Part shown: positions 12,806-43,924 of the stretch, piece by piece
Layout: the number at the start of each line of letters is the position of its first letter
How positions within the stretch are numbered: the first letter of the stretch is position 1
Assembly (NCBI RefSeq): GCF_004193775.1
Contig: NC_041004.1
Span: forward strand, 33,628,411 to 33,692,410
Direction: 5' to 3'
DNA: 64,000 nt
DNA from: Glycine soja
Lineage: Eukaryota; Streptophyta; Magnoliopsida; Fabales; Fabaceae
Made by a program: the position numbers and the translations under genes
Notes under the pieces: model-generated
Told to the model about the DNA's origin: nothing
Database searches by the model: none
Seen by the model: the letters and a program-made list of their open reading frames with translations, nothing else

Positions 12806-12960
12806 CACTACTACAAAAGTGTGATTCAACATCGTTGAATCTAAGTCGGTTATAAAAAATCGATGTAGTAAAGCTTGCAGTGACAATTTTGAAATTAATA
12901 CTAAACTTTATAAAGCGTTAACGACGGTAGCCCAAACTGCCTTAGATATAAATGTTACGA
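12806..12960. repeat. left terminal and subterminal region of CACTA-A
   Basis: CACTACTACAAAAG followed by AACATCG, AAGTCGG, ATCGATGTAG and AACGACGG motifs in both orientations. These are degenerate forms of the subterminal transposase-binding-type repeats seen at the right end (43535-43924) and in CACTA-B. Confidence 0.75.
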
Positions 12961-13108
12961 AGGCGGTTACTTTATTAATTTTTGCTTTTCATTCTTTGGA
13001 ATTCACGCGCATGCCTTTTCATCTTCTGTCTCGCCCTTCACCCTTCCATGACCTCCGTAGTCTGCCACAACCTCCGTTGTGACCTTCGATACTTGCCGCA
13101 AGCTCGTC

Positions 13109-13325
13109 ATGGACATTCCCTCTAAAGCCACCATCGTTGCTTCCACAAATCCCCTTCACACTCTCAGGTAAGGTGCCCTTTGGTCACACCACTTCTTCTT
13201 CATTCGCCTTTTTCCCCTTTTAACAAAGGTTTTCTTTTTTTGTTATTCCAGGTTTACTGCTTTCTCGTCCCACACTCAAAATCAAACCCCGAAAATCGAT
13301 TTATCTAACGAAGAAAGCAAAAGAA
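13109..13325 (+). pseudogene. SDHAF2: captured SDHAF2 (succinate dehydrogenase assembly factor 2) exons 1-2
   Basis: Two exon pieces separated by a short intron. The first ends ASTNPLHTLR with a GTAAGG donor after 13167. The second starts after TTCCAG at 13252 and reads FTAFSSHTQNQT then KIDLSNEESKR, the start of the SDH5/SDHAF2 domain. That mitochondrial protein promotes flavinylation of succinate dehydrogenase subunit 1. The donor after the second exon seems mutated (AAATAAATTT instead of a GTAAAT type). The next exon of the same gene is at 29077-29203, with copia-2 inserted in the intron between them. It lies just inside the left end of CACTA-A, so it is transposon-borne and incomplete. 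Confidence 0.82.
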
Positions 13326-13421
13326 ATAAATTTGTTTAATCAGTTCGTTTCTTTCTTTCTTCTTCATTTTTTTAGCTTTACCCTTTTTGATTTCTATGGC
13401 AAAATTTTTATTTTTCTAATG

Positions 13422-13904
13422 TGTTGGAAGCCCACGTTCACGTTCCATGTGCTTCCTTTTTTTATTTTATTATTTTGGAAAATTTTGTTATTTATGAATC
13501 TGGTCCATTTTCCATCCACATTCAACACATATCTTTGCAACATAGTTGTAACCACCTTCAGTAACAAATCACGTACTCATCCTTTATCTCACGTACTAAT
13601 AACTTCTATCTCATGTTCTGATAACAAGTTGAGCTCTATGATGGACATACTCTATAAATAAGATGGAGTACTCTCAGTTTTGTATCACCAAACCCACTTC
13701 TCTATTCAGAAAAAATACACCATCTATTCAGAGCGAGTAAGGGTCTGAAAGAACAAAATTGCCTTTCAAGTTTGTGTATGCGCCGCTTCGCGTTCGATTT
13801 GCAATGGCTGGAGGTACGCTCGTAATATTTAATTTCCGTTGTTTGATCTGAATATGCCATTTAAATTGATTTGCATGTTTAGACCAGTATATGTATATTT
13901 TACA
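13422..13904 (+). repeat. 5' LTR of copia-2
   Basis: Starts TGTTGGAAGCCCAC and ends GTATATTTTACA, about 483 bp. It contains a likely TATA box, CTATAAATAAG, near 13652 and is followed within two bases by the primer-binding site. Confidence 0.92.
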
Positions 13905-15060
13905 TTTGGTATCAGAGCCTCTGCCTTGCTTTTATTATGCTTTGTTCAATTAAAAAAGAAAAGTGAACAATAAGCGTTAAATGAATTTTTTTTAAAAGCG
14001 TACCCTCCTCAAAAGGCTGAATTTAATATTTAAATATTAAAAGTTTGAACCTTTTCAGTAAAAGGGAAGCAAACTTTTATATATTAAAATAATGTGATAG
14101 GCTGGAGGATGAAGATGTACATGCGCATGTTTACTGATATGAAATTGTTAATATATATTTGTTTCTGAGAATTCTAAACAAAGCATGACTTGATCCAATG
14201 GTTGATGTGGTTAATATTACCTCTTTGTCGCGGGTTCGAATTTTATTGGTAGCCTTTTTGTTGCTTGTTTTTAATTAATTAAAAGGAACACATAAATGAA
14301 ATAAAAACACCTTGGGCTGGTCTTGACTCCTTGCCCTACAACATGAAATGACTCCCTCTACCACTAAGCTATTGCAATTTATTTGTTTATTAGGTGCAGT
14401 TCATTTATATTTATAACTTATGAAGGATAAATCATTTATGTGCAAGCTATTTAAACTTGTGTGTCTCTAAGTTATGCTGAACATGCAATATTATGTTAAA
14501 TACTGGTATGCATTGGATTTGATCCTTTAAAGTTTATTACATGTTGAATGGATATACGTGCAATGTTATTTTGAATTGGTATACATGGAATTTTTATGAT
14601 CTAATATTGAGCACGCTTGCATTATTAAGTATGTTATGCAAAGATTATTTTTGAATGTTATGTGATTAATATAATTTTATTAAATTAGAGAATAGCCACA
14701 ACATCTTTAATTGAGTAAAATTATATGCTAAATTTATATTCACATTAGAAATATTAATTATGATTAATCATATGTATTGTGATGAAATCTACCCACAAGA
14801 ATTTTGTTGTATTTGTATGATTAATTAGGATAAAATATTATACTATATTTCTTAATTTACCCACAGGAATTAAGGAAAAGAACATGATTTAATAGTTTTA
14901 TCATAAAGTTGCATGATGAATCTAATTGAGTAGGACTTTAGCCCACAGACAAGTTTTGTGTCACTAGATTCATATATTGAGACATGATTTGCATTGGCAA
15001 AACATGACATTTGTTTAGTCTCAAATTTTCTTAATAAACATGTGTGTTTGTTTATAGTTT
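13905..15060 (+). other. copia-2 leader between primer site and gag
   Basis: About 1.1 kb of untranslated leader without an ORF. A tRNA-like B-box (GGGTTCGAAT near 14230) occurs but no matching A-box or tRNA fold was found, so no RNA gene is called. Confidence 0.6.
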
Positions 15061-15068
15061 CACAATCT

Positions 15069-16208
15069 ATGAATATTTCTTGTGACCTTCCCATATTGAA
15101 AGGTGATAATTATAAGGTTTGGAAGGAAATAAGTCTCCTTCATTTGGGCTGGATGGATATTGACTATGCTATAAAGAAGGATGAGCCATTGACTATTACT
15201 GAAACTAGCAAACCTGATGTTGTTGACCTTTATGAAAAGTGGGAGAGATCTAATCGTCTCTCTGTTATGTTCATAAAAACCAACATATCCGATAGTATCC
15301 GGGGTTCAGTTGACCAGCATGATAAAGTCAGAGATCTGTTGAAAGCCATTGATGAACAATTTACGACCTCTGAGAAGTTGCTTGCTAGCATACTCATTAT
15401 GCAATTCCCTTCCATTAAGCTTATTGGAATGAGAGTTGTACGTTAACATATCATGTGCTTAAGGGACATAGTGGCTCAGTTGAAAATCCTAGAAGTTACC
15501 ATGTCTGAATCCTTCTTGGTACATTTCATTTTGTGCACCCTACCTCAATAGTATACACCCTTCAAAATCTCCTACAACACACATAAGGATAAATGGTCTA
15601 TTAATGAATTGATGACCATGTGTGTTCAAGAAGAGGAGAGATTGATAATGGAAAAGGGTGAGAAGGTAAATTTGACTACTTCTACTTCTGGAAAGGATAG
15701 GAAGAAGTCTATAGGCACCAATAAAGGAAGGATTCCGACTCAACCAACAATTAAAAAGGAGTCAAAGTATTTCTTTTGTAAAAAGAAAGGACACATGAAG
15801 AAGGACTACCCCAAATTTAAAAGTTGGTTTGAGAAGAAAGGTACACCATTTACTTTCGTTTTTTATGAATCTAATATGATTAATGTGAATCATAATACAT
15901 GGTGGATTGACTCTGGTTCTACAATCCATGTTTCTAATACCTTGCAGGGTATGGAAAGCCTAAGGAAGCCAGTGGGAAGTGAGCAGTGCATCTACTCAGG
16001 GAGTTGGATGAGCTCGCATGTAGAGGCCATTGGAACATGCATCTTAGTTTTAAGTAGTGACTTTAAATTACATTTGGAGAAAGTTTTTTATGTTCCTAGT
16101 TTTTGTAAAATCTTAATTTCTGTTTCTAAACTTGCACCTTTGGGATTTTATTTTAATTTTACAGACTTTGGTTTTAATTTACTAAATAAATCTGAAATTA
16201 TTGGTTGA
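15069..16208 (+). pseudogene. copia-2 gag and protease remnant
   Basis: The gag start is visible as ILKGDNYKVWKEISLLHLGW and continues to about 15446, where the frame stops. A further gag frame at 15609 leads to a zinc knuckle YFFCKKKGHMKKDYPKF, in which the last Cys of CCHC is Tyr. The protease active site WWIDSGSTIHVSN near 15900 keeps DSG. The frame ends at 16208. In intact elements gag builds the virus-like particle and protease cuts the polyprotein. At least one stop and a frame change separate the pieces here. Confidence 0.85.
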
Positions 16209-16287
16209 TGGTCTTTATTCGATTGAATTGAAAAGCAACGCTACTTATAATTCTATGCACATTCCTGTTGGGTTAAAATGATGTATT

Positions 16288-17140
16288 GTGAATGAAGAAT
16301 CCTCTATGTTGTGGCACCGAAGATTAGGACATATCTCTATTGAGAGAATCAAGCGATTAGTAAATGAAGGAGTGTTTAGTACTTTGGATTTCGTTGATTT
16401 TGAGACTTGTGTAGATTGCATTAAGGGTAAGCAAACTAACAAGTCTAAAATGGGTGCAAAGAGGAGTTCTAATTTATTAGAAATCATACATACGGACATA
16501 TATTGTCTAGACATGGAAGCAAATAGTCTGAAATACTTCATAACCTTTATAGATGATTATTCACGATATATGTATCTCTACTTACTTCATTCTAAGAATG
16601 AAGCTTTAGATGCCTTTAAAGTTTTTAAGGCTGAAGTTGAGAAACAATGTGGAAAACAAATTAAGATCGTGAGATCAGATAGAGGTGGGGAGTACTATGG
16701 TAGATACACAGAGGATGGACAAGCACCAGGTTCATTTGCGAAATTTCTTCAAGAACATGGGATTGTTGCCCAATACACTGTGCCTGGTTCTCCGGATCAG
16801 AATGATGTGGCAGAATGAAGAAATCAAACCTTATTAGACATGGTGAGAAGCATGAGGAGTAATGTAAAGCTTCCTCAATTTTTGTGGATTGATGCTCTTA
16901 AGACGGCTGCGTATATATTAAACCGAGTTCCAACCAAGGCTGTCTCAAAGACACCTTTTGAGTTATTCAAGGGTTGGAAACCAAGTTTACAACATATACA
17001 CGTTTAGGGATGCCCGTCTGAAGTAAGAATTTATAATCCACAAGAGAAGAAACTAGACCCTAGGATTATTACTGGGTATTTCATTGGATATGCTGAAAGG
17101 TCTAAAGGGTATAGGTTCTATTGTCCATCCCACAACACTA
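16288..17140 (+). pseudogene. copia-2 integrase remnant
   Basis: The HHCC zinc-binding domain (LWHRRLGHIS and CVDCIKGKQ) is followed by the core with FIDDYSRYMYLYLL and VRSDRGGEYYG, where two catalytic Asp residues are seen. A TGA at 16816 interrupts the frame (VAE then stop). The sequence after it ([28 protein letters not shown]) is the remaining core and C-terminal part, with another stop near 17007. Confidence 0.85.
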
Positions 17141-17145
17141 GGATT

Positions 17146-19109
17146 GTGGAATCAAGGAATGCAAAGTTTCTTGAAAATGACTTGATCAGTGGGAGTGATC
17201 AATTTCAGAACATTTCTTCTGAAAGGGATCACTATGAAGCAGAACCTTATGGGACAAGTAATAGGTTGGTAGTCATTCCCACCCCTCAAGTTAAAATGGG
17301 TGTTAGACTACCAGTGATTGAAGTTCCACAAGCTGTTGAAAGTGATCATGTAGATCAAGTTATTTGTGAGGAACAACATGATGATATTGAACAAACTGGT
17401 GAAGAACCAGTTGAACAAGTTCCTCAGCAAGATGACCAAACAACATTAAGAAGATCTACTATAGTAAAAAAGACAACAATTCCTTGTGATTATGTAGTGT
17501 ACCTACAAGAATCAGACTACAACATTGGAGCCGAAAATGATCCTGAGACGTTTTCACAAGCCATGAGTTCTAAGAAATCAAATTTGTGGTATAATGCTAT
17601 GAAGGATGAGATGGATTCTATGACATCTAACCAAGTTTGGGATCTCGTTGAGTTGCCTATTGGTGTAAAAGCCATCGGATGTAGATGGGTCTTCAAAACA
17701 AAGAAAGACTCAGAAGGCAACATTGAGAGACATAAGGCAAAACTTGTTGCTAAAGGATTCACTCAAAGAGAAGGAATCGATTACAGAGAGACCTTTTCCC
17801 CTGTGTCTAAGAAAGACTCTCTTCGAGTAATTTTGGCATTAGTAGCTCATTTTGATCTTGAGCTGCATCAAATGGATGTGAAAACGGCGTTCCTGAATGG
17901 TGATCTAGAAGAAGAGGTTTACATGAAACAACCTGAGGGATTCTTATGTAGTGTTGGTGAGCACTTAGTCTGCAAGCTTAATAAGTCCATCTATGGCTTG
18001 AAACAAGTCTCCCGCCAATGGTATTTAAAATTTCATGAGGTCATTTCTTCATTCAGCTTTGAAGAAAATGTCATGGATCACTGTATATACCAGAAGGTCA
18101 GTGGGAGTAAGATTTGTTTCCTTGTATTATACATAGATGATATTCTACTTGTGACTAATGATAAGGGTATGCTATATGAGGTGAAACAATTTCTCTCAAA
18201 GAACTTTGATATGAAGGATATAGGAGAGGCATCTTAGGTCATAGGCATAAAGATCCATACAGAAAGATTTCGAGGCATTTTAGGCTTGTCTCAAGAAACC
18301 TATATCAAAAAAGTTTTAGAGAGCTTTAACATGAAAGATTGTTCACCAAGTGTAGCTCCCATTGTGAAGGGTGACAAACTCGCTTTGAGTCAGTGCCCCA
18401 AAAATGATTTTGAGCAGGAACACATGAAAAATATTTCATATGCTCAGTAGTTGGAAGCCTTATGTATGCTCAGGTTTGCACTAGACCTGATATTGTGTTT
18501 GCTGTTGGAGTCTTGGGAAGATATCAAAGTAATCCAGGTATTGACCACTGGAAACCTGCAAAGAAAGTGATGAGATATCTTCAAGGAACAAAGGATTACA
18601 TGCTCATGTACAAACAAACTGATTGTCTAGAAGTGATTGGCTACTCCGACTCAGACTTTACTGGTTGCGTTGATTCACGAAGATCAACATCTGGTTATAT
18701 TTTTATGTTAGCCGGTGGAGCTGTATCTTGGAGAAGTGCCAAGCAAACCTTAACTGCTACTTCCACTATGGAGGCTGAGTTCGTTTCCTGTTTTGAGGCT
18801 ACCTCGCATGGTGTATGGTTGAAGAATTTCATGTCTGGCCTTAGAGTTGTGGACTCTATTTCTAGGCCATTAAAGTTGTATTGTGACAACTTTGCTGCGG
18901 TGTTTATTGCTAAAAACAACAAAAGTGGAAGTCAAAGTAAACACATCGACATCAAGTACTTAGCCATAAGAGAACGTGTTAAAGAAAAGAAAGTGGTCAT
19001 TGAACATGTCAACACTGAGTTGATGATTGCTGATCCTTTAACTAAAGGCATGCCACCAAAGAATTTTAAGGATCATGTAGTACGAATGAGACTTGGTTCC
19101 ATGATATAA
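17146..19109 (+). pseudogene. copia-2 reverse transcriptase and RNase H remnant
   Basis: The longest frame (17146-18237) covers the linker and reverse transcriptase: RWVFKTKKDSEGNIERHKAK, MDVKTAFLNGDLEEEVYMKQ, SIYGLKQVSRQWYLKFHE and the catalytic box YIDDILLV, so the polymerase core looks intact. A TAG at 18235 stops it, and a frame change near 18450 leads to RNase H (18462-19109). That region contains YSDSDFTGCVDSRRSTSGYI, TATSTMEAEFVS and IADPLTKGMP. The Sirevirus insertion begins 240 bp downstream. Confidence 0.88.
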
Positions 19110-19350
19110 TTTCATTGTACGTAAATTTGTTATTTTTAATGAAACTCTTATTCTGTTAGATATTTTCTCATATGGTTTTATGCACATATTTATTTATTTC
19201 AAGAAAAATAATTCGGTTTAGATATAGAATAAACATATGGTTTATGCATTAAGTTGAGAGCTAGTGTTGAGAGACTTGATATATTGTGGCACATGGAAGA
19301 TACTACTCATCATCAGAGGACCTATCGCCATGACTCATATATTATGTTTC

Positions 19351-20439
19351 TGTTAGACAAGTGGCCTCAGATATCTTAAGAAGGGTGGTTGAATTAAGAT
19401 ATTACAAACTATTTTCCCAATTAAAATTCTATTTCACTTTCTATTCAAGTTACAAATTCCCTTAACAATGAACTTCTTAAATAATGATTCAAATAGAACA
19501 ATCTGAATATAAATATAGAACAATAATAAATAAAAGAGTTTAAGGGAAGAGAAAGTGCAAACTCAGATTTATATTGGTTCGGCCACACCCTTGTGTCTAC
19601 GTCCAGTCCCCAAGCAACCCGCTTGAGAGTTCCACTATCTTGTAAAATCCTTTTACAAGTTCTGAACACACAAGGACAATCATTCCTTTGTGTTCAGAAT
19701 TCTTTTACAACAAGAGACCCTCGGTCTCTTAATCCCTTAGAGAATTAGAAAGAAGAGAAGAATGAATCTCTCTTGAAAGAGATAGATTTTACAATCTGAG
19801 CACTCAAATGATTCCTTATTGAATTGCAAGTGTATTGGCCAAGGAATTCTTAAGAGGATAAAATGATTTTGCTTTTTGAGAGAATAAACACTTGTTGTTC
19901 TGAAAAACTCTAAGCAAATTCGTATTCTAAGTCACATATATATAGACCTTTGGTGGTCATGTAAAACCATTTGAGAAGATGTGACTCTTAGAAATAATTT
20001 TCTGAAAATCTTCTCTGGTAATCGATTACAGGATTTGTGTAATCGATTACAGCTTTTAAAATTTGAATTAAAACATTTATTAACTGCTGGTAATCGATTA
20101 CCAATATTGTGTAATCGATTACACAGTCTAAAATTTGAATTCAAAATATTTAGTAGCTGTTGTAAATCATTTTTGGCCACTGGTAATTGATTACATCCTC
20201 TGGTAATCGATTATCAGAGAGTAAATCTCTTGAAAAACACTTTTTAACTTAAATTACTTGGCCAAACCTTTTGCTATATCAATTAGGAATTCCCTTCCTA
20301 AAATACTAGTGATCATCTTGATGTTGTGGCTTGTATTCTTGAATCATTGTCTTGAATTTAAACTTGAAAGGCGCATTTGCATCATTTGCATCAAATCATC
20401 ATGATCATCATCAAAACACCAAAGTCTTTTGCTTCTACA
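19351..20439 (-). repeat. 3' LTR of the Sirevirus (left copy)
   Basis: From TGTTAGACAAGTGGCCTCAG to TTTGCTTCTACA in plus coordinates. It contains six copies of a palindromic core TAATCGATTA or one-base variants between 20020 and 20216. It is about 25 bp longer than the right copy, mostly because one repeat is missing there. Confidence 0.92.
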
Positions 20440-21001
20440 ATCTCCCCCTTTTTGATGATGACAATATAAGTCCTGAAATCAAGATACAAGCAAACAATGT
20501 ATATGTATAAAATTGGCGTTCACTCCCCCTATGTTTTGGAATTGATGATCACTTGATTGATCACTTGATTTCTAAGCTTTTCTAAGCTTTTCTACACCCC
20601 CACTTGATTTCTAAGCTTTTTCTAAGCTTTTCTACACCCCATTTTTCTCCCCCTTTGGCAACATCAAAAAGCCAAAGTACTTGGGAATCAAAACAGATAT
20701 AATAATGATGTGGATAAACATCAATTATAAATTATAAGTCATAACTAACCAAAATCATAACTAAGACATAACCAAAATAGAATCCAATCAGTTCAAAATT
20801 CAAAAACACATAGTATCAAAGCATAAAAGTCTAAAATCCAAACACTAAAAGATAAATAAAGTACTGAAAATAATAATCTAAGTAGCATAACCAAAATACA
20901 CGGCTTATAAGAGACATAGAATTATAAACTAAATTCTAAGAAGGTGGAGGTGGTGGTGGAAGATCGAAACTCTGACGAATGTAACCCACATCCTCTTCAA
21001 G
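20440..21001 (-). other. Sirevirus 3' untranslated region and polypurine tract
   Basis: Holds the purine tract complement next to the LTR and a partial duplication of CTTGATTTCTAAGCTTTTTCT near 20560-20640. No ORF is present. It lies between the envelope-like ORF and the LTR. Confidence 0.7.
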
Positions 21002-22072
21002 CTATGTGAGGCGAATATCCATTCCGGCAAAACGAGTATCCAGTGAGTCGAAACGTTCACCAACATAAGAACGAAGACCCCGTAATTCGGAAAGAACTTC
21101 AGTCATGAGTGTTGAATCATCTCGCTGAGGAGGAGGTGAAGGAGTACGCTCATCTTGAGGAGGGAGTGCGTCTTTCTTCAGCCATTGACCATTCCGATCC
21201 TTACAGTATCCAAAGGAAGTCACTGCACCAGCACCAATTGCAAAGGAACGCTTGACTTGAACAAATGGTTCATCATCAAGCGGAATTTGAAAATGACGCA
21301 GAAACAAAGTTATCAATTGAGGGTAAGGGAGAGGTGCATTGGCCAGTAATGCCTTATGCATTCGGTATCGAACCAAGTGAGCCCAGTCGATCTAACGACC
21401 GGTAAGGAAAGCCCACATAAAAATCAAATCCTCCTCAGAGGCTTGTGCCAAATTTGAAGATCGGGGAAGCAAAATTCTAACAATTATATAGTGCATGATG
21501 CGATTATCAAATGTTAATGACCTGTCCAGCAATCTACCGGTCATTTCAGCCTGGTCATTGTAGACCATACGACGAGCATCATGACTAGAATAATCAAATT
21601 TCCAGTCATCAACAATGGTGCCCTCAAAATGTGCACCTTGACTGGGTAAATGAGTTAAAGAAAAGAATAATGGCTGATCAATGATCATGGGAATACCATG
21701 CACCTCAGAAGAAATAATGCCATCCTGAATTTTTAAATTGCAGTAGAAGACCTTTACAAGTTCAGGATAATGTGGCAATTTTAAGGACATGAAATCAACC
21801 AAGCCAGAATTTTGAAACACTTGATAGCAATCAAACGTTTCATCATTAAAGAAATCTACGTCTAGGTACTTAGGGTCTAAGATGATCCTAGAAGAAAATT
21901 GAGAAAGGTACCGTAGACGCTGATCATCGGATGAAAACAAAGTGGATGATCTTGGAGATGACAAAGAGGGATGAATAGGTGTTGTGGGTGCTTCGGATGG
22001 TCCGTGGTGGCGATGGGCAGCAGCAGTGGTGGTGGAGGATGATCCCTTTCTCTTTTTCGATGGTTCTGCCAT
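21002..22072 (-). pseudogene. Sirevirus envelope-like / plant transposon protein ORF, one in-frame stop
   Basis: Two frames (22072-21392 and 21376-21002) are in the same phase and separated by one TAG at 21392-21394, giving about 356 codons in all. The N-terminus is Ser/Pro/His-rich and basic (PSKKRKGSSST). The middle has the conserved region seen in plant retrotransposon-borne putative transposon proteins (FSSRIILDPKYLDVDFF, GIPMIIDQPLFFSLTHLP). The C-terminus has a short heptad-like stretch, LRSYVGERFDSLDTRFAG, compatible with a coiled coil. No clear signal peptide or strong membrane segment is seen, so an envelope role is not supported directly. The position after pol in the same orientation is the Sirevirus hallmark. 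Confidence 0.8.
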
Positions 22073-22254
22073 TTGATGAAGTTTTAGTGAATTTCAATCG
22101 GTGAAAGTGAAAGAGGAGTGAAAAAGAGGAAGATTGGGCTTTACGGGACGTGTTTTGGTGAAGATTTGAGTAAGATACGAAGGTTTGAAGATTTAGGGAT
22201 GGAGGAGGCACGAGGAGAAGCCTTGGCTGCGCAGCAACACTGGTTTCGTAGGTA

Positions 22255-22425
22255 TTTATAGACGAGGATGAGTTGTAATCGATTACAAGGCTTGGTAATC
22301 GATTACAGGAGTAATAAGCCTTCTGGTAATCAATTACAGGATGTTGTAATCGATTACAGGCTGCCTGTTCTTGTGTAATCGATTACACTGGATGGTAATC
22401 GATTACCAGAGCATAAACTAGGCTA
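22255..22425. repeat. array of TAATCGATTA palindromes upstream of the envelope-like ORF
   Basis: Six copies of (G)TAATCGATTAC or one-base variants spaced 15-30 bp apart lie just upstream (in element orientation) of the envelope-like ORF start. The same motif recurs in both LTRs. Confidence 0.85.
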
Positions 22426-22631
22426 GTTTCTCAAAAAATTACCTATGTCTATGCTAAATACATCTAATATTATTAATTATCACTACTAATGCACTTAATT
22501 CAATCATTCAAATATAAAACACACAGGAATTCATAAATTCTATCATAATAACAAGAATTTAAACAAAATCAATCAAAGTAACATACTTAACATAAACAAT
22601 CAATCATAAGAATAAATTAATCAATCAATCC

Positions 22632-31491: not shown

Positions 31492-31564
31492 GTCAGAGTT
31501 ATGATCACTTTTTCTTTTCTTGGCAAATTCTGCAAGTCTTTTCCCTTGTTTTAAATGAGTGATT

Positions 31565-31584
31565 CCCCCCCCCCCCCCCCCCCC
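31565..31584. repeat. 20-bp poly-C tract
   Basis: An uninterrupted run of C. It lies between the two captured subtilase exons and may be length-variable. Confidence 0.9.
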
Positions 31585-32245: not shown

Positions 32246-32340
32246 GGTGAAAGTCTCAATCTCTTTGAAGTGAATGCCTCCACAAGGATAATTTCTGCTT
32301 CTACAGCCAATGGAGGATACTTCACTCCTTGTCAATCCAG
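32246..32340 (+). pseudogene. captured subtilase exon (PA-domain region)
   Basis: Between AAACAG and GTGAAG the frame reads GESLNLFEVNASTRIISAST and then ANGGYFTPCQS. This matches the region between the catalytic His and the protease-associated domain of plant subtilases. It fits the same source gene as the exon at 31397. CACTA-C is inserted 18 bp beyond the donor. Confidence 0.8.
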
Positions 32341-32369
32341 GTGAAGCAAGGTACTTAACACTATTAGAA

Positions 32370-33140: not shown

Positions 33141-33388
33141 TTTCAGGAATTTTTTTTATATAATGTCTTTGTTTTTACAAAAAACCAAAATTTAACCTGT
33201 AAATTTAAAATCAGACCACACAGCACACAACATATATCATTTGCATTCAGTTTTCAAATAGATTTTAGCAAAAAACTAGCTATCAACAAAGGTTGTTCAA
33301 TGTTAAGATGAAACAACAATTGTAAAAAATATAATGCAAAGTACGTAAACTAATTTATTAACCTAAAGTTACATAGTTGCCTAACATC

Positions 33389-34053
33389 CTATGTTTGATT
33401 TCTAACTTTTAGATAATATTGTGCCCACTGTATGCGAAGTGCCTTAAATCTCTCTGCTTCCAATGGTCTAACTTCATTAAAATACTGCATGATGAAATAA
33501 AAAAATAAATTAATAATGTAATAACAATTATAAAAAAACCAAATTTGTTTGTAATAAACAATTACCGTCTCCCAATTATTCCTGAAAGATCCTAAGATTA
33601 TCGTGGACATCCAGTGCATCACGTAGTAGCCACATTCAGTGATTCCTTTTTGTCTATTACACTAAATACATAATGAAATTTGGATATTAATTAAACGTTA
33701 ACTACAATTAGTGTACACACACATAAAATATATATAAGTAGAACTTTTATTTAAATTACGTACCTTAACAACAATCCACCTAGCAGCAGCCTTGGATTTC
33801 GGTTGTGGAGTATCATCAAGTCCTTTCAAAGCACTAGTGTTGAATATAAGGAACATTAAAATATTGATGTTGTTGAGTTATGCCAATGAAAATGTATTGA
33901 AAACAATACTGACCTGTTAATTATTCCCTTAAGGTAGTTGTCTGGCCTGTTATGCAAAGAACAAAACCAGACAACTAGGTTTTCCTTAGGTAGAATGACG
34001 ACCATTTGCCAGTGTCCACTGCAGTAGAGACGAATATCGTGAAGCTGATCCAA
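33389..34053 (-). pseudogene. ULP1-like cysteine protease (C48) gene of CACTA-C, 3' exons
   Basis: Four exons on the minus strand. 34053-33914 has SGHWQMVVILPKENLVVWFC, with the catalytic His of the GHW box. 33833-33764 has LDDTPQPKSKAAARWIVVK (donor GTACGT). 33653-33566 has ITECGYYVMHWMSTIIL, with the catalytic Cys in ECGYYVMHW (donor GTAATT). 33484-33389 has YFNEVRPLEAERFKALRIQW, to a TAG stop. ULP1-type peptidase domains are common passengers in plant CACTA and MULE elements. The domain's N-terminal part is missing or diverged upstream, where the open frame stops. Splice signals are otherwise well kept, so this may be a recent truncation. Confidence 0.82.
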
Positions 34054-34270
34054 AGTATTGCTTTATGGTGACACCGGCTCCAACAGCACGAACACGGCCA
34101 GGGTGCTCTGGTCGCCCAATGGCAGCAGTCAGGATATCCTGACGTCCATGTGTCACATAGGCATGACAATTTCAATTAAGAGAGAAAATTAATAATATGA
34201 CTTATTTGTCGCAGTTTTTACAAATTTGATAACAAAATTTTAATTTTTTATCTTTAAGGGATCTAATTAT

Positions 34271-34520
34271 CACTACAAAAAGAATTACAATTTGTGACAT
34301 TAAAAAAGTGATTTCTAATGGTTAAAAATCACCACAAATTGCATTTCCAACGGTCTGGATTGACCATCAAGAGTACCATTGTCAGAAATTATTTGTGGCG
34401 ACTTTAAGTTGAGCGCTGGTAAATTCGTCAAAAAGTTTGTGGTGGGTTTATATTTTTAGCATTTTTCATTTTCTAGCGGTTTTGAAACCGCCACAAAGTT
34501 TATTTTTCCAATATTATATA
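34271..34520. repeat. left subterminal region of CACTA-D
   Basis: Repeated TTTGTGG/CCACAAA and CGGTTT/AAACCG motifs, including an inverted pair GCGGTTTTGAAACCGC near 34478. The right end at 37798-37843 has TGACGGTTTAGAAACAGCC. Confidence 0.75.
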
Positions 34521-35454
34521 TATTTTTATTTATTATATCTCCTATTATTTTATTTAAAACAAATACTATATAATTCATAATAGATCCATTTTTAATGTAC
34601 AACAGTTTAAAAAAACATATTGTCACTTAATTAGTATCTCATTGCATGAACCACCTTACACCTGTCAAGTCACTTTTTCATTCTTCCTCAATCTTACAAT
34701 TAAACCTGCAGCAGAGTGCAAAAATGATTTAGAAAATTGAATCAGTCTTTTTCTACTATCTGTTTGAAGGGGTGCAACTTATGATAGCTTATGAAGTACC
34801 TTTAATTTATGTGTCAAGAGGAAGAAATCACCCATTATGAAGTCAATTTGATCATCCACCGACCCCATAAGTAGTAGCTTTATACCTAACAAAGAAAAAA
34901 GAATTAGATTTATTTTCCTTTGGATGTAAGAACAGGCTCATATATTTTATTTTATTTTATCATGCGTTATGCGCTCTGCCAACTCAAGAGAGTAAAAAAA
35001 TACTTCCCCCATATATCACATTATGGGCTCTGCCTCCTCTGAGATTAACAAAACAAGACTCAAGATTTTGCAATAAAGACACACTTATGTTGAGTGTGTA
35101 AGACAGAGAAAGTATATATATTTGGTTTGCCGGTTCAAGCAATGGAGGGTCTAACTTCTAACTTCTTTAACTTGCTATATCAACAAAAACTTTCAAATTT
35201 GAATTAACTCACTCAAAATTTATTCCTATTTTTACAGATAAATATAAATAAAAAAGATAGCTAACTTAGTTCTATTTTTCTAGGTAAGGATAAATATAAG
35301 GATAAGTAACTTATTCATATTATCTAAGCTAAACGTCACCTAGCAATTTCTATTGTTTTGATAATCTAACATTCTAGAGTCACTTTAACAAGTTAAGCCC
35401 ATTCTAGTTATCAAAATCACTACAACAAAAAGGATTAGTAGTTAGTACTTACAG

Positions 35455-35525
35455 TATAAACCGCTTATGGTTGCTCCCTCACAAGAATAGATATTTGGCT
35501 TCCCATTGGTGTGTCGAGTGCACCT
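35455..35525 (-). pseudogene. unidentified exon-like fragment in CACTA-D
   Basis: A stretch bounded on the minus strand by a pyrimidine-rich TTTTTAG acceptor and a TACT|GTAAGT donor, so it has exon form. One frame reads CTRHTNGKPNIYSCEGAT, another ALDTPMGSQISILVREQP. The family was not recognised. Its place between other captured exons suggests captured DNA. Confidence 0.35.
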
Positions 35526-35825
35526 AAAAAGGGGGAAAAGACAAAGATTATTAAAAATGAGAATTGAAGAGATTAACCTTGATACAAAAACATAAAGGAA
35601 ATACAATAATTCCAAATAATACACACAAAACTGAGAAGCTGCATTAAAGCTTCAATGTCACTCTCAATATAAACTGAGAAGCTGCATTAAAGCTTCAAAC
35701 ATGAGTCTGGAACATTGCAAAAACATTCACTCAGTTATTCATAGCAGAGCTAAAAAGCAAAACTTGATAGACTGATTTAAAGTAATTTGAGAAATCATTT
35801 TAGCAAGATGAAACAATATTTGTAC

Positions 35826-36196
35826 CTTGGATGCTTTTACAGCAAGCTTTTCTTCCTACTCTGTGACAGACCAGGTTCCTTTGGGGTGGGAAAAGATCTC
35901 TTCCCTATGTGAAATCATCTTTTCGGCCTGCCAATAAGTGCTTGATTTCATTGAAGGGCAAATGTTAAGGATTAGAAAATGAAAACGATCAATACCATAC
36001 AATAAAAATTTCTAAGTGATGCTACTTTGGAATGCTATTTTGCAAGACAAGATAAGAAGTTGAGAACACACAAAAACTGGACATAATTAAATTTGGGTAA
36101 TCCAAGGCATACAAAGATTAAAGGCAAGCAAAACATAAAAACTGATCAATGCCTTTGTGGCCTCAATTTCATTTTTCTCAAAGCTCTTTATTCTCT
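35826..36196 (-). pseudogene. captured DEAD-box RNA helicase (RH28-like) exons
   Basis: The exon 35927-35826 lies between TTGGCAG and GTACAA and reads AEKMISHREEIFSHPKGTWS, then VTE, a stop and EEKLAVKASK. This is the C-terminal region after the helicase core of plant RH28/DDX27-type proteins, which act in ribosome biogenesis in the nucleolus. An exon-like piece just upstream (36196 to about 36148, after TTTCAG) reads RIKSFEKNEIEATKA and fits the preceding segment. The core helicase motifs are absent and the main exon has an in-frame TAG. Confidence 0.65.
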
Positions 36197-36444
36197 GAAA
36201 TAAATTGAAAATATAAACAAATACAATATTAATAAAAACAAAGTGAAAAATGGAAAAGAATGAAGAGTTAACAATTAAATAAAATCAAAACCTCTCTTCT
36301 TGAAGTATTTCAGATACTTATTTACTTTTGACTTCACAATTATGTCTATATGGTGCTTATCTCAGTCAAGCTTGCATTACATAAGAGTGGAAGAGAACAA
36401 TACGTAGGCAATATTATTTACACATCACCTTGTTTATTATTTAC

Positions 36445-36497
36445 CTCTGGAGTTGGAGCCTTTTTACGCTGCCCATTCAACCAACATATCCATTCAA
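36445..36497 (-). pseudogene. captured exon of complex I assembly factor NDUFAF2-like gene
   Basis: A 53-bp exon between TTTTAG and GTAAAT reads EWICWLNGQRKKAPTPE. A Trp-rich block followed by GQRKKAPTPEE is characteristic of plant NDUFAF2/mimitin-like proteins (NADH dehydrogenase 17.2-kDa-like). Only this exon was recognised, so the call rests on one short motif. Confidence 0.5.
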
Positions 36498-37597
36498 CTA
36501 AAATAACCAAACAATAATTATCTATTAATTTAAGAATGGGAAATTGGATAAAAAAAAATCAGAGATTTTTTCTGAATAAATTCAACGTATAAAATAATTG
36601 CCTGGATCCATCCCTAAATCAAAATGTAATAATAGACATATTAATTTAGCAGAGAAAGAGTGTTTCGTCAATGAATCAGATATTGGGGGAAGTAAAACCC
36701 TAATCGAATATTAGAAACAGTACCGAGAGGGAATAAACCGCTGAAGCTATGCATGAACCATTCGAATCCCTTTGAATCTCATCACCACCCAAAAGCTTCG
36801 TTCCACGATGAACAAATAATGCAACATCACCGCCCTTGCTCTGCACTTGACGAGATTCAGAACATAGATGGCACCAGTAAAGTACCTAGTGAGGTTTTGT
36901 TGCGATTGACACGAAAAAAGCTTTAGTCCCAAGGGCGCAGGTAGGGCTCCGGAAAAGCTTTGATTGTTGAAATTTTCTTGGGGCTTTGTTAGCGGTTGAC
37001 GGGATGAGAGATTTCATAGGTTTAAATTGTGTAAACAAGGCCTATGATGGCCAGAACCAACCCCGACGGCGGCAGAGTAGAGGGGGTTCCATGGAGTTCA
37101 AAGAAGAGAAAGGAACCTCGAATATGTGGTTTTTTTTTCGGTAAATACACTTCTTCATTTTTTTTAATTTAAAATATTATAAAATATAAATATTATATTA
37201 TATAATTTTTTTAATTGGTTTTAAAATTATTTATTTATTAAGTTAAATTTTATAATTTAATTTTTTAATTTTTTTAAATAAAATGATATTATTAAATATA
37301 ATTATTTTTATTTTATTATTTAATTTACTTAACATATTTTTAAAGTTAATATTTTTATTTAAAATTTAAATTTTTTAATATAATTATTTTTAATATAATT
37401 ATATTATTAAATATAATTAATTTGTTTATGTTATTAAATTTAATTAAAAATTAAAAACAAAATTGTTTAACAACTTATTTATAAAAAATATTATATTACA
37501 TTATTAATAAAATATTTAAACAATTACATTTGATTAAGAAAAAATTTAAGATAAAAATATACTATGACAATTGTTTTTATTATAGACTATGTTGCTG

Positions 37598-37602
<5 letters not shown>

Positions 37603-37661
<59 letters not shown>

Positions 37662-37665
37662 TTTT
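37603..37665. repeat. (AT)n microsatellite followed by poly-T
   Basis: About 21 AT units followed by about 20 T, inside CACTA-D. Confidence 0.9.
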
Positions 37666-37846
37666 ATTTTTTTATTTTTATTTTTTTTTTTACTTTCTCC
37701 TTTCATTTTCTTGTTTGTCCATAGCATAGCATGTGCGACATTTAAAATATTGAACTCCAGCTCTCACGGTTAAAGAATTTGCCAATAATTACATCATTTC
37801 TGACGGTTTAGAAACAGCCACTAAAAATTATTATTTTGTAGTGTAT

Positions 37847-39355
37847 CAATCAGCACCTAACAAAGTCAAAGTAAAAAATAAGTATCTACCCTAATATAAA
37901 TATGAATTTGAGTAATAAACGTGTAAGTTTCCCAAAAATAAAGGACGCAAATTTAATTTCGTTAATAATTATTATTAAGGTATCTATGTAACATAATTTT
38001 AAGTTTAAATTGAATTTTTTTTTAAAATAACATGAGTATTAAACTTACGTCAGAGTTTTCCCAAAATTAAGGACACAAGTATAATGGTCAATAATTATTT
38101 TAATTAAGGTATATATTTACTATAATTTTTAAATATCTAAATTAAAATTTAGGAAGAACAAAACTCGTTAATGTAATAATCATAATAATAATTATAATTA
38201 TGATTCCGAACTAAATATTTATGAAACATTACATCACAACCCATGCCATACAGGTCGACACATGTACTCCAAACCGTGAAAACCATGAAAGCTTCTGTTT
38301 GATTGTCACGTGAATTTCTTACCTAAGAAAATATTCACAAATTTTATATCACTATAAAGAAGGGGGTTGAATTTTATTTAAAACGTCACAAATCTTTTTG
38401 AAAAACTTAAGCTTTGTTTGTTCAACGGAGGATGCCCAAAGTAAGTTTTTAAGACAGGTTTCGATATAAATCTCTTATTCCAAAACCTTTGTAGAAATAA
38501 GGTAAAGAAATTGTTAGAAACACAAGGTGAGTTTGGGATATAACAAAAGCAATATAAATAATACAAGGTATTTTTAAATTGATTCATCTCTATTATGAAG
38601 ATTAAGTTCCGCTTGTGATAAACTATCAATCACATTTTCATATAATTTAAAAACATGCCTATATACTTTATCAATCAACTTCATTTTGACGAATGATATG
38701 CCTTTTAAAAAATATTAATTTTATATTTTTTATACTCTATTTGAATATTAAAAAATTATTATATTTTTTATATTTCAGTAAATATATATGTATCTTTAAC
38801 GTTTTTTTTCTAAAATATGTATCTTTTTGACGGCATGTATTTAATATTATGCAAGAATCATATCTTAAATTAATTTTTAGAATTTTTTTATAAATAACAA
38901 TGATTTTATATTTATTCTAAAATATGTCCATTGAAATAAATTATTTTATCGGTCATAGAGATCTGACTAAACAATTATTTTTTTTTGTCTTTTCTTGGTT
39001 GAATAGTTATTATATATTTTTATGTTTAATTTTTACGAATAAAAAAAATTAATCAATCCGACCCTACACTTACTTGGATAGTAGTCACACACTATATTTG
39101 GACATTTGCAGTAGATCGATCTTTGACAAAAAAAAGTTACGCAAGATTTTAATTTCTATAAAGAAACCATATAATTTTGTTGATTAAATAATAATAAAAT
39201 TAAATTTACGAAATTCATTTTAAAAATTTAGTTTAATTTTTAAATGTTTACCTTTTGAATTTATAATTGTTTCTTAATTATTATATATTTTTAATTAAAA
39301 TATAATTAATAACGCAATATATGATTTTTTTAAAATATATAAAAATTAAAAAAAA
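37847..39355. other. CACTA-C interior, AT-rich, no gene recognised
   Basis: Between the right end of CACTA-D and the right hairpin array. Short open frames lack family patterns. The sequence is strongly A/T-rich. Confidence 0.55.
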
Positions 39356-39359
39356 ATTT

Positions 39360-39815
39360 ATATTAACATCGGTTTTTTGGAAAACCGATGTTAACATATC
39401 ATATGTTAACATCGGTTTTTCAAAAACCGATGTTAACTAATGATGTTAACATCGGTTTTCCAAAAAACCGATGTTAACGTGTATGTATTAACATCGGTTT
39501 TTTGGAAAACCGATGTTAACATATTACACGTTAACATCGGTTTTTGAAAAACCGATGTTAACGTGTATGCATTAACATCAGTTTTTTGGAAAACCGATGT
39601 TAACATATTATACGTTAACATCGGTTTTTGAAAAACCGATGTTAACAAATGATGTTAACATCGGTTTTCCAAAAAACCGATGTTAACATCATTAGTTAAC
39701 ATCGGTTTTTTGGAAAACCGATGTTAAGAATAATACTTTATTTACAAATATGCCACCGCGTTTAACTTAACATCGGTTTTGTAAAAAACCGATGTTAATA
39801 AGCCGATGTTAAAAC
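39360..39815. repeat. right subterminal hairpin array of CACTA-C
   Basis: About ten palindromic units of the TTAACATCGG/CCGATGTTAA type, with spacers such as CATATTACAC and CGTGTATGTA unlike the left array. It includes a short TTTACAAATATGCCACC segment also found, inverted, in CACTA-E (63882-63897). Confidence 0.95.
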
Positions 39816-40168
39816 TACTTTTTGTAATAGTGTAAAAGTGAGAGCTGCCTAAAAATCAATGCAAAAAGATGACTCTTAAAGTTATATTTTGTTTTACTTC
39901 ACTCTTTTATTGTTGGTCTCCAATGAGTAAAGAATTGGTTTTTGTTGATATTATTGTTTTCTTTTTGGTTTTTGATATGGCAGTATTAATTCTAATTTCT
40001 ATCTATTATATTGGCTTATGTTTCTGTTTGAGGTGATGATCTAACGGAATAAGATTTTGTTGTTCTTGTGTTTGTGTTAGTGATTATGGTTACTTTTGTG
40101 AGAGATATAATTTTTCCTCTTGAAGCTGTATTATGGTTTGGAAAAGTTAAATGGAAACAATAATACAA

Positions 40169-40285
40169 CTTGGTTATTCACTTTGCACCTTCACTGGACA
40201 TTCAACACCTATAATGTTAGTAGATTTTCATCCAAATAAAGATTACCTCATCTGCTCTTGTGATGATAATGGTGACATAATGCAG
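40169..40285 (+). pseudogene. captured LEUNIG-like corepressor exon (WD40)
   Basis: The frame reads LGYSLCTFTGHSTPIMLVDF and continues HPNKDYLICSCDDNGDI. The order TFTGH, V-DFHPNKD and LICSCD identifies a WD40 blade of the plant transcriptional corepressor LEUNIG. The N-terminal LUFS domain is absent. It lies to the right of CACTA-C, in the same orientation as the other captured fragments of CACTA-A. Confidence 0.82.
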
Positions 40286-41552
40286 TTTTTTATTTTATTT
40301 TGTACCTGATCAAGTGCTATATGTAGCACTGTCATGAGATGGGAATCATGCACTGACATGGAAGACCAATTATGCCTGGCAGGACAGAGGTAACAATTAG
40401 CTAACTTAAGCATATGATCATGAAAGAATTTTAATTTTGTGGTTGAAGATGCTTTTTCCTTTTACGTACGACTCCGAGAGAGAAGGTTACAATTTTCATG
40501 TCTGCTCATGTCTCATGCATATTAGAGGAGTTCTTGGTTTTCTTTTCTTGTCTTATTAATTCTATTTCCCCTCTCTCTTTTCATTCTTTTCTATTTCCCC
40601 TCTCTAACATATTACAATAACCTATAGAATTTAAGATGCTAATTTTGTTTTTTTTCTCTCACTCTTTTTATCCCCTCTTCTAAGTTATAGATTAATTGGT
40701 TATATAACTAGTTAAAGATGTAACTGGTTATATAACTAATGAACTAAATTAAAAAGAGATGAATATATAGTTTAAAAATGAACTAAATTTCTGGACCAAA
40801 TAAAAAGAGATCTAAACTAAATATAGGTCAAGCCTAAATTTGATGCATAACCTTTAGCAATTATGGCTCAGTTACAACTTGAAAGTAAATTTGCCATGAC
40901 GAAGGTTTGGGGTTGTTGTCCATGAATAATACTATGTGCATCAAATTTTTTTAAAATGTATTTTCTCTTCTCCCACATGTTGCTTTATTCACATATCATA
41001 GATTAAAATTCTGACATATACTTAAAAGGATTAAACTACTTGCTACTTGTGTTACATATTGTGGATACACTGAAATTTTTTAATACAAAACAAAGATGAG
41101 ATAAATTCTCTCATGGAAAAAAAATTATTTTGGTCCTGAAATGTCACATTAGTCCTAAAGTTAAGAAAATTTAAAATAAGTTTTTAGAATATTAAATAAG
41201 TTTCTAAATAGTTATTGTTATTTTAATTTTTAAACAATGTTAATATTAATAGTTAGGTTAATTTTGTTTTGAAAATATTGCTATTTTAATTTTTAAACAT
41301 GTGTTAATATTTTTTTTTTAATTCTGAAAATATTGTATTTTCAAAATTTTTTTCTTTTTTAAATTTTCTTACTTTAATATTTTTCAATTCATTCTTTTCT
41401 ATTTTGTAAGAATATTTTCAACCCTTTTGTTAATATAAAATTAAGGAGATTGCTTTGACATTACCATATATGTTTCAGCATTGAAATTAACACTTGAAGG
41501 GAAAAGATATTACTCTGTTCACTCTTTACACTTACCTTTTACTCATCTGCAG

Positions 41553-41659
41553 CTCATATACCAATATATTTGTATCCCTTCCTTAATACAACCCGTAAGT
41601 CTAGATTATTTGAGTATTTGAGGCTTACCACTCTTGGAGTCATTGGTGCCTTAGTGAAG
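41553..41659 (+). pseudogene. captured CNOT9 (RCD1-like, CCR4-NOT complex) exon
   Basis: After a CTGCAG acceptor the frame reads [20 protein letters not shown] and [16 protein letters not shown], ending at a GTACAA donor. This block is among the most conserved parts of CNOT9/RCD1, an armadillo-repeat subunit of the CCR4-NOT mRNA deadenylation complex. Only this exon is present. Substitutions such as R for S in NTT(S)KSR indicate drift after capture. Confidence 0.9.
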
Positions 41660-42116
41660 GTACAACCTCCTTGCACAAACAAATTCACTTCTTCTTCCCA
41701 AGAAATTGTTGATGCCTATGGGTAATTTACTACAACGTTATCTAGCTGCTTATAAATGCACTCCACTCTATTTTTTAACAATAAATATTGGTAGTTACTT
41801 TCTCTCTAGGTCATACAGAGATAAAAACAAAAAATAGTTGATACGAGAGTATTTGTCAAAACAAATTTACAAGTTAGTTGAAAATTAAACTTATAAATTA
41901 GTTGAAACTCATAAGAGCTGAAATAATAAAAATTTATGAGCTAGCTAGTTGATTGGATAAAAATATTTAATAATATTAGCCAATAAGCTAGTTGATTGAA
42001 TACAAATATTTAATAATATTAGCCAATAAGCTAGTTAATAAATATAAAATGACATAAATATTTTGATTTAATTACTTGATATAAAGAGAGATATCAAATA
42101 AACCTAGTGTGAGGAG

Positions 42117-42400
42117 TCTGAATGCTGTTGTTGATTGGCAACAACAATGTGGCTATCTGGTTGTTCTTTGATTATTTTTGGGAATGTGGGATATCTCCCT
42201 CTACCCCAATGTCCTAAAATCCTCAATAATTGTTTCCTCATATTGTGATGTTAATGGTTTTCTTATTGTGTTTCTTGTTACATTTATACATATACCAGTA
42301 TGCATCGGGTGATATATCGTCTATTATGCTATGGGATGTTGATAAAGAGCAACTTGTTTATTCTAAATCTTCATCATCAGATTGCAGTGTCTCAGTGTTG
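42117..42400 (+). pseudogene. captured RAPTOR1 exons (TOR complex scaffold)
   Basis: Exon 42117-42159 reads LNAVVDWQQQCGYL and ends at a GTTGTT donor. Exon 42299-42400, after ACCAG, reads YASGDISSIMLWDVDKEQLV and SKSSSSDCSVSVL, ending at GTAAGC. This is the WD40 region of RAPTOR, the TOR-kinase partner that recruits substrates. The two exons join in phase. Neighbouring exons on both sides are missing. Confidence 0.88.
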
Positions 42401-42420
42401 GTAAGCCTCATCTTTGCATG

Positions 42421-43534
42421 ATGTGGTTTGTGTTGGTAATTCTTATGATTGCTTTAGTTATTTTGGCATGACAACTAAGATGTTTTTCAAGACATTTGAG
42501 CCAAATATTGTTTGAGGTTTGACATGCCAATTACATAAGATGTTTAATGGAACAATTTGATTTTGTAAGTATACAAGAAGGCAAAATTTGAGATTTCTAG
42601 TCATAGGTTAGAGTTGAGTGTCAATTTGCCTTCATGTGTCTATCCTTCCCATCGGATTGAGCTATTTTAAATTAGGTGATTTGACATTTATCTAGTAGTT
42701 TCACTTTGAATTGCCACCTAACTGTTATTGGTTTGAACCCACCATACTTTTTATTCCTTTAACTAAGTTTGTTTTAACATGAATTAGCATATCAAAGCTT
42801 CAAAAAGTTGACTGCACCACTCCATTTGTTCATACCTTTGCAAGCAGGCTTCTTATATGAACATGTATTTTTTAGTATCTTTTTAAATATAGTTTGTTGT
42901 ACTTGTGGAGGCCCTTGAAAAATTAAGAAAAACATTGGTGGTAACTGGTAAGAAAGTAAGAAACAGACTATAATACTGACTATGTGGATTGCTTATGATG
43001 TGGTTTTCTTATGAAAATAACTTGTGTAGTTGCAGGTATACATAATTTTTAGTATTGATTTTCTCTCTTCATTGTTAGTATTGATTTGAAACACTTGGAC
43101 CTATTGTGTCCAACTCTTAATTACCTGGGCCATGTTTGATCTCCACTCACACCACAACATCACAACATCAGGGGATGTCCTAGCTACTAAATTTGGATGG
43201 CTTGTAGTACTAGGCCTTGCAGTCTATCTACATCATATCCCTTATGGTATGAGTTGCATATATCATTTGTAATATTGGAGTGTCAGTAGGGAATTAAGTA
43301 TATATAGATGTGGACAAAAAGGTAATAAAATTGTTGAATGTAGCCATTACATCATAACTATATGTATAGCTTCTTTGTGTCAATGATACAAATTGGAAAT
43401 ATTTAATTATATGTTTTTATTACTATACTGCTACCTATTAAAGCATAAGTTATAACTTGTTTTAATGATGTGCACATTAAGATTACTTTTTTCATTGCCT
43501 TTATTCATGAACAAAAAGCAAAAAAAAAAAATTA
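42421..43534. other. CACTA-A interior without recognised gene
   Basis: About 1.1 kb between the RAPTOR fragment and the right subterminal array. It is probably captured intron or filler DNA, with no coding pattern seen. Confidence 0.5.
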
Positions 43535-43924
43535 CAATTCTACATCGGTTATTAGGATAACCGATGTAAAATTGTTGAAAGTTTATGACGGTTATAATTA
43601 TAACCGACGTAGAATCATGATGATACTACTGCGGGTTCATATGGAGAGCCGATGTAGATTGTCCATGAATCTACAACGGGTAGCAAAAAAACCGATGTAG
43701 ATAGGCTAGATTCTACGACGGGTTGTTCAACACAACCGATGTAGATTGCCAATGAAACTAAGACGGGCTTAGGTCCAGACCTGTCTTTGAATGAAGTGTT
43801 TCTACATCGGTCAAACAACCGATGTAAAAGGGTGTTGGTCTTTCAACGATGCGGGCTACAACATCGTGTTATAACCGATGTAGAAGGGGTGTTTTAACTG
43901 ATGTAGAATGGTCATTTTGTAGTA
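43535..43924. repeat. right subterminal array of CACTA-A
   Basis: Multiple TCTACATCGG / CCGATGTAGA units in both orientations, interspersed with GACGGTT, GGCTTAGGTCCAGACC-type and ACGGGTT variants, ending GTCATTTTGTAGTA at the CER1-like exon. Confidence 0.85.

Follow-up and report, generated by a model that had tools for sequence, protein, structure and literature searches.

Capture of gene fragments by CACTA transposons is already known, and in the literature surveyed, available in part, it is unsettled how several captured fragments come to share one orientation. The closest described systems are summarized here from partial texts of the reports cited. In Tgm-Express1, from the wp allele of soybean, five gene fragments are spliced as extra F3H exons under the F3H promoter (PMC1947982); we infer that all five are sense to the host transcript, being spliced into it. 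Pack-CACTA (Pack-TYPE) elements consist of non-autonomous CACTA ends around coding DNA, sometimes from several loci, and local insertions with conserved element orientation have been reported for them (PMC8903248). The Tpn1 family of Ipomoea nil has its internal sequence replaced by captured host DNA, and one copy yields chimeric transcripts with DFR-B (PMC5105172). Cactavine-5 of grape is a CACTA element with a captured gene piece, a PPR piece opposite to the transposase frame (PMC2528002), so one orientation is not universal among CACTA elements. Here we present the anatomy of CACTA-A, an element of Glycine soja at positions 12806-43924 of a stretch of 64,000 nucleotides (the window, C3:33628411-33692410, from a genome of 1.01 Gb), together with its donor or closest loci, the orientation of its cargo, the empty sites of its later insertions and the blocks common to its relatives.

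The family to which CACTA-A belongs has ACATCGG-type subterminal repeats, and CACTA-A itself is a Pack-type CACTA transposon that is non-autonomous. Very probably it captured pieces of about eleven genes stepwise, landed in an exon of a CER1-like gene and later received nested insertions. Like Tgm-Express1 it is a CACTA element in a host gene with several unrelated gene fragments, introns included; unlike Tgm-Express1, which has five fragments in 5.7 kb (PMC1947982, partial text), it carries eleven in 8.0 kb net, and it interrupts an exon of its host gene, to which it is antisense. It shares with Pack-CACTA elements the non-autonomous ends around coding DNA and with Tpn1 the replacement of internal sequence, although Tpn1 belongs to another species and another family and the available text does not state the orientation of its captures (PMC5105172). 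One-way captured fragments and sharing of blocks between elements, both seen here, are undescribed in the available text of the Pack-CACTA account (PMC8903248).

Each of the eleven fragments has a donor or closest locus, and all eleven lie on the plus strand, as judged from the strand of the matched gene (the WD40 exon was read directly). An earlier note, made from the letters of the window, had proposed a gene-fragment-rich CACTA element with six or seven host genes in one orientation; that proposal holds and is extended by four fragments that it overlooked (OSCA/CSC1-like, E2 intron, CDK-like and the region downstream of the translocator). The ends and the cargo, with terminal inverted repeat abbreviated as TIR, leucine-rich repeat as LRR and cyclin-dependent kinase as CDK, are as follows.

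12806..12968, plus strand: left TIR (CACTACTACAAAAG) and subterminal region of CACTA-A, read from the sequence
13029..13123, plus strand: family leader region, recurring in relatives and continuing to a GTAAGT donor site in the relative L056
13109..13167, plus strand: chimeric exon, leader (ATG at 13109) joined at 13123/13124 to SDHAF2 exon 1 (L035 alignment); GTAAGG kept
13252..~13341, plus strand: SDHAF2 exon 2, both splice sites kept; a small insertion gives a frameshift and a stop
29077..29203, plus strand: SDHAF2 exon 3 (Sdh5), both splice sites kept
29483..30134, plus strand: LRR receptor kinase fragment with intron; donor C11:41631887 (95%)
30184..31106, plus strand: OSCA/CSC1-like channel fragment, mostly intron; C9:43.62 Mb or C18:54.50 Mb
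31108..31226, plus strand: ABC1-kinase fragment carrying an internal deletion; C2:50385166 or C14:403604 (95-99%)
31244..32358, resuming at 39833-39893 past CACTA-B, plus strand: subtilase fragment, three exons; donor C9:40.39 Mb (95-97%)
39885..40157, plus strand: part of an intron from a gene for an E2 ubiquitin-conjugating enzyme; C17:7739676 (88%), part at C5:2478534 (97%)
40171..40285, plus strand: WD40 (LEUNIG-like) exon, Pfam WD40; acceptor AG lost
40272..41431, plus strand: CDK-like kinase fragment; 40272-40587 matches the kinase gene L053
41425..41675, plus strand: CNOT9 (Rcd1) exon and adjoining intron, with both splice sites retained
41727..42102, no strand assigned: dispersed repeat with several genomic copies (genome matches)
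42098..42540, plus strand: RAPTOR1 fragment; donor C18:49208855 (95%)
42534..43046, plus strand: sugar-phosphate translocator, region 3' of the last TPT-domain exon; donor C2:49045089 (95%)
43537..43924, plus strand: right subterminal repeats and right TIR of CACTA-A, without the last 3 bp and without a copy of the target site duplication (TSD)

Summed, the fragments amount to about 6.3 kb of the 8.0 kb; 5.5 kb remain when 40588-41431 is excluded, a stretch that matches C7, C3 and C12 loci without a gene name. SDHAF2-derived DNA begins at 13124 and extends to 29439, and a 54-bp tandem duplicate (30135-30188) follows the LRR receptor kinase fragment. Family names are those of Pfam and PDB matches; the finer names RAD6-like, LEUNIG and glucose-6-phosphate translocator are our own reading of what Pfam itself gives as UQ_con, WD40 and TPT, as are AP3-like, RPC2 and RAB18 for K-box, RNA_pol_Rpb2_6 and Ras. 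Most gene assignments of the earlier note are upheld: SDHAF2 by Pfam Sdh5 (E 1.1e-10; the PDB match is weak, 0.12), CNOT9 by Rcd1 (5e-16) and PDB CNOT9 (7e-14), RAPTOR1 by Arabidopsis RAPTOR1 (PDB 5wbi, 2.6e-6; no Pfam family), and the subtilase, LRR receptor kinase and ABC1 kinase by nucleotide matches of 95-99% to Pfam-named loci elsewhere in the genome. The SDHAF2 stretch 13109-13325 was rightly named and is two exons instead of one (13109-13167, with SDHAF2 from 13124, and 13252-~13341), and the subtilase exons stand as named, with a third (31605-31671; Inhibitor_I9 1e-3, 20.2 bits against a cut-off of 21.2) having escaped notice. The exon given as LEUNIG at 40169-40285 is a WD40 exon (Pfam 4.5e-6), and a LEUNIG donor was not recovered: its best genomic match is a chimeric locus at C7:20.27 Mb (85% amino acid identity), followed by six loci at 62-67%, and 'LEUNIG' would thus denote likeness, the donor being untraced. 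That chimeric locus (C7:20271250-20271850, a second one besides CACTA-A) has the WD40 exon already joined to the CDK-like exon, with an in-frame stop; it gave no Pfam match, and its WD40 and kinase parts were named by alignment to CACTA-A and by eye. Three similar loci (C2, C1 and C14) exist for CNOT9, of which the C2 one was read. An assignment of 39885-40157 to a long interspersed nuclear element (LINE) was considered, as the C5 copy adjoins a LINE frame, yet the C17 copy lies inside an E2 gene and the assignment was rejected. Matching loci are thus present in the same genome, and the fragments are not separate intact genes, the two contrary outcomes that the earlier note had named being absent.

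The donor or closest loci are mostly 88-99% identical to the fragments, introns included; captured introns are mostly 95-98% identical to those of the donors (88% for part of the OSCA piece), and their presence indicates that the source of capture was DNA. For four genes the best locus clearly exceeds its likely homeolog in identity, at 95 against 78% for the LRR kinase, 97 against 85% for the subtilase, 95 against 78% for the translocator and 95 against 83% for RAPTOR1, which places capture later than the genome duplication. Kimura two-parameter distances (K2P) to the donor, measured for seven of the eleven fragments and left unconverted to dates, are 0.035-0.051 for SDHAF2, LRR kinase, OSCA (C9), CNOT9, RAPTOR1 and the translocator piece; the OSCA piece is at 0.070 to C18 and 0.039 to C10, and two parts of the subtilase piece are at 0.015 and 0.031. 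At face value the subtilase piece would have been captured last, which fits a relative at C4:42.3 whose stretch in common with CACTA-A stops at 31226. The exact order of events is unsafe, as the K2P of the outer long terminal repeat (LTR) pair described below, literally read, predates the capture of the adjacent piece.

Both ends of CACTA-A have the features of the CACTA superfamily. The left TIR is CACTACTACAAAAG, and the right terminus at 43924 (TTTTGTAGTA) matches it except for the last 3 bp; the terminal GTG is gone in CACTA-A and still present in its C11 relative L048, whose right end is complete. Direct and inverted subterminal repeats, a trait of the superfamily, are present, with two exact copies of ACATCGG and six of CCGATGT within 43500-43930; no exact copy of either was found in 12806-13100, where diverged copies were read by eye. 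The two ends align mutually, and they match ends of other elements as well. They enclose eleven host fragments, and Pfam found no transposase in six frames of 29043-32358 and 39833-43924 or in the plus frames of 12806-13421, as is characteristic of Pack-CACTA elements. CACTA-A is probably immobile today because the outermost three right-end bases have been lost. The motif of the Tgmt*/Tgm-Express1 subfamily (exact TTGGCAG or AATCTTACAG; PMC2613891, partial text) does not occur in 12806-13100 or 43500-43930, which places CACTA-A outside that subfamily; the earlier description as Tgm-Express-like therefore applies to the architecture and not to the subfamily, CACTA-A being Tgm-Express1-like in its putative working. 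Elsewhere in the window a CACTA-like end (CACTACTAGAAAATTATC) with tandem ACATCGG-type repeats lies at 55540-55954, CACTA-like ends with ACGACG-type motifs lie at 62181 (minus strand) and 1785 (plus strand), and direct repeats of 206 bp, 98% identical and 4.6 kb apart, were seen at 3749-3954 and 8312-8517.

The span of 31,119 bp, given as CACTA-A in the earlier note, comprises an element of 8.0 kb and 23.1 kb of later insertions nested in it; the net length is 8,016 bp after subtraction of an outer LTR element, CACTA-B and their TSD copies.

13422..29042, no strand assigned: outer LTR retrotransposon in the captured SDHAF2 intron, 15.6 kb, TSD TAATG; LTR K2P 0.058 +- 0.011
19351..28560 (approximate ends), no strand assigned: inner LTR retrotransposon within the outer one; LTR K2P 0.026 +- 0.005
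32359..39832, no strand assigned: CACTA-B in the captured subtilase piece, 7.5 kb, TSD TAA
34271..37843, no strand assigned: CACTA-C within CACTA-B, TSD TAT

The empty site of the outer LTR element is preserved in L030 and L031, which pass directly from 13421 to 29043, and that of CACTA-B in L039 and the donor L041, which pass directly from 32358 to 39833; these sites rule out that all 31 kb are DNA of the element. The LTRs of the inner element are at 19351-20439 and 27497-28560. Pfam gave no domain in CACTA-C at E 0.01 and no match in the scanned stretch 33190-34270 of CACTA-B.

The host is a CER1-like gene on the minus strand, to which CACTA-A is antisense, with a part on either side of the element.

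43925..46349, minus strand: host CER1-like gene, 5' side of the interrupted exon (Pfam, open frames and alignment)
11694..12805, minus strand: host CER1-like gene, 3' side, with the CER1-like_C domain (Pfam, open frames and alignment)

The left side matches CER1-like_C (E 3.3e-21 and 2e-21) and the right side FA_hydroxylase (E 3e-4, below the Pfam cut-off). A locus on C7 (L054, 88% identical over both flanks), the probable homeolog of the host gene (a label given throughout from identity alone), aligns to 12802 and resumes at 43925 with 3 bases (GCA) between, and a paralog on C3 (L055) is uninterrupted at the insertion point, with the same reading; because both run on across this point, CACTA-A is an addition to the gene. 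From the frame ...LLRGKLTKV, its continuation left of 12806 and the continuity of L054 we read the insertion as lying within an exon. That 12806-43924 could be several adjacent CACTA elements and not one insertion is extremely improbable: the right TIR is imperfect, no TSD is seen, CACTA-B and CACTA-C are separate elements inside, and the L031 alignment extends 23 bp beyond the left end into A+T-rich flank, yet L054 and likewise L055 leave 3 bp between 12802 and 43925, and the two ends of CACTA-A align with each other and match those of other elements. Further CER1-like loci were seen on C3 near 30.96-31.25 Mb, and an open frame at 48310-48639 (minus strand) resembles, by eye, a LINE endonuclease domain.

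The left terminal 163 bp recur, wholly or for the most part, at no fewer than 38 other loci (40 of 159 candidates were scored; copy counts are lower bounds). The left, middle and right blocks of CACTA-A are common to different loci on other chromosomes: the C4:42.3 relative has 12806-31226 in common with it (88-96%, interrupted by about 8 kb of other DNA), the C12:15.01 relative 32192-42102 (gapped, the largest gap being 40211-40915), and the C11:20.00 and C15:44.40 relatives 42098-43924 (88-94%). In the right part of the C4:42.3 relative (L029 1-5775), retrotransposon-like frames were read by eye and zf-RVT was found by Pfam; its right end was not found. Smaller relatives are compact: L031 on C4, about 1.9 kb with ATA on both sides, holds SDHAF2 and a piece of the OSCA fragment, and L056 (C3:32333650-32334650), about 0.9 kb with CCA on both sides (by eye), holds the family leader region. 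Part of the cargo may have been acquired as blocks pre-assembled in such relatives, and the exchange of blocks would fit a model of neighbouring elements being re-mobilised by way of their outer ends (PMC8903248, PMC13317346, partial texts).

Single insertion and stepwise capture thus appear very probable, with several observations weighing on the other side. A recognisable TSD of CACTA-A was not found: the left flank is TAT as against GCA in L054 and L055, and the right copy is gone with the eroded end. The open frame immediately right of CACTA-A has no Pfam match, its CER1 reading coming from inspection by eye and the continuity of L054. The relatives on C4, C12, C11 and C15 were none of them seen with both ends, and the capture step itself was not observed. 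A transposase-bearing partner is not proven: in a survey using 139 of 150 listed transposase matches (those on small contigs were left out), two of 39 left ends have a same-strand transposase match downstream, and one of these two is part of a complete small element without transposase. The latter, a pairing of the left end at C3:32333701 with a transposase at C3:32339016, was rejected, as L056 ends within about 0.9 kb with CCA flanks. In the sequence of events that we favour, CACTA-A would have been mobilised by a transposase acting in trans, would have collected host genomic pieces, exons and introns alike, in several steps after the last genome duplication, perhaps during repair or re-mobilisation of neighbouring elements, and would then have landed antisense in the CER1-like exon before two nested LTR and two nested CACTA elements inserted.

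The uniform orientation extends to relatives. In L039, GDI (1.9e-6), a Ras-family GTPase (7.4e-6) and HVA22 (2.3e-5, below the cut-off) are all on the strand of the element, and so are a K-box (8.9e-5) and an Rpb2 domain-6 piece (0.0015), both below cut-offs, in L048; frames at these two loci were chosen by eye from both-strand listings, and L048 is cut at one end. With the eleven of CACTA-A this makes 16 of 16 fragments sense to the element. In six-frame Pfam scans of the two main parts of CACTA-A, L039 and L048, six of the 12 sense frames had a match and none of the 12 antisense frames did, these scans being less sensitive (the Ras and Rpb2 pieces did not appear). Assuming independent unbiased captures, the two-sided p is about 0.001 for 11 of 11 and about 3e-5 for 16 of 16. 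That this reflects chance, or few capture events with shared ancestry, is unlikely. Blocks are common to several elements, so captures are partly non-independent; the WD40 and CDK pieces are joined at C7 too; extra fragments were sought at two sister loci, where three of the five recovered fall below Pfam curated cut-offs. Against this stand the sense orientation of all fragments at the three loci, the empty antisense frames, and a two-sided p of about 0.004 that even nine independent captures would give. Tentatively, and with more doubt than confidence, we suggest that capture or retention is polarised in the CACTA-A family, such that only fragments sense to a left-to-right transcription unit are gained or kept. 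Sense fragments might join the leader exon and be spliced through, or antisense copies of essential genes might be selected out.

Splice sites were read from the sequence and compared with the donors for exons other than those of OSCA. Of the 11 exons judged for an acceptor, 10 retain a putative one (SDHAF2 2 and 3, LRR a and b, ABC1K b, subtilase a-c, CNOT9 and RAPTOR1 b), the exception being the WD40 exon. Exons that retain a putative donor site are SDHAF2 1-3, LRR a and b, subtilase a and c, a CDK-like one, CNOT9 and RAPTOR1 b; next to the ABC1K exon a GT stands beyond the matched stretch, 7 bp are deleted at the donor site of RAPTOR1 a, and subtilase b is cut at this site. The AG and GT bounds reported earlier are thus mostly kept. 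The stretch 13029-13123 is a candidate leader exon of the family's own transcript, because its copy in L056 continues into GTAAGT, and a left-end promoter with this leader could let sense fragments be spliced; a putative chimeric transcript is plausible on these grounds. Host read-through would yield antisense RNA, and for a sense transcript a promoter would be required within the left end of CACTA-A. A single transcript joining the fragments, as the earlier note had worded it, is not supported: the fragments lie opposite to the host gene, the 15.6-kb LTR element and the 7.5-kb CACTA element stand between them, the WD40 exon has no acceptor left, and a frameshift leads to a stop in SDHAF2 exon 2, so that a protein from this exon would be short. 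It is very improbable that the fragments form a working chimeric gene, with one transcript from a left-end promoter and the captured exons spliced to a functional mRNA. In favour of such a gene are the fusion of the leader with SDHAF2 exon 1, which has an ATG and retains its splice donor, the preservation of most of the splice sites examined, and a precedent in the Tgm-Express1 exons spliced into F3H mRNA (PMC1947982, partial text); the defects just named, with 23 kb of nested insertions and antisense read-through from the host gene, argue against it, and the ATG at 13109 is GTG in L056.

What is distinctive in CACTA-A is the orientation of 16 of 16 fragments together with a mosaic of common blocks. 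With donors, overlapping-block relatives and nested insertions in one genome, stepwise capture, exchange of blocks and orientation bias become countable. The insertion also cuts a CER1-like wax gene, and read-through from this host would transcribe the captured fragments antisense. If polarised capture or retention is true, the CACTA-A family would be a modular exon-shuffling system that exchanges sense-oriented exon blocks between elements.

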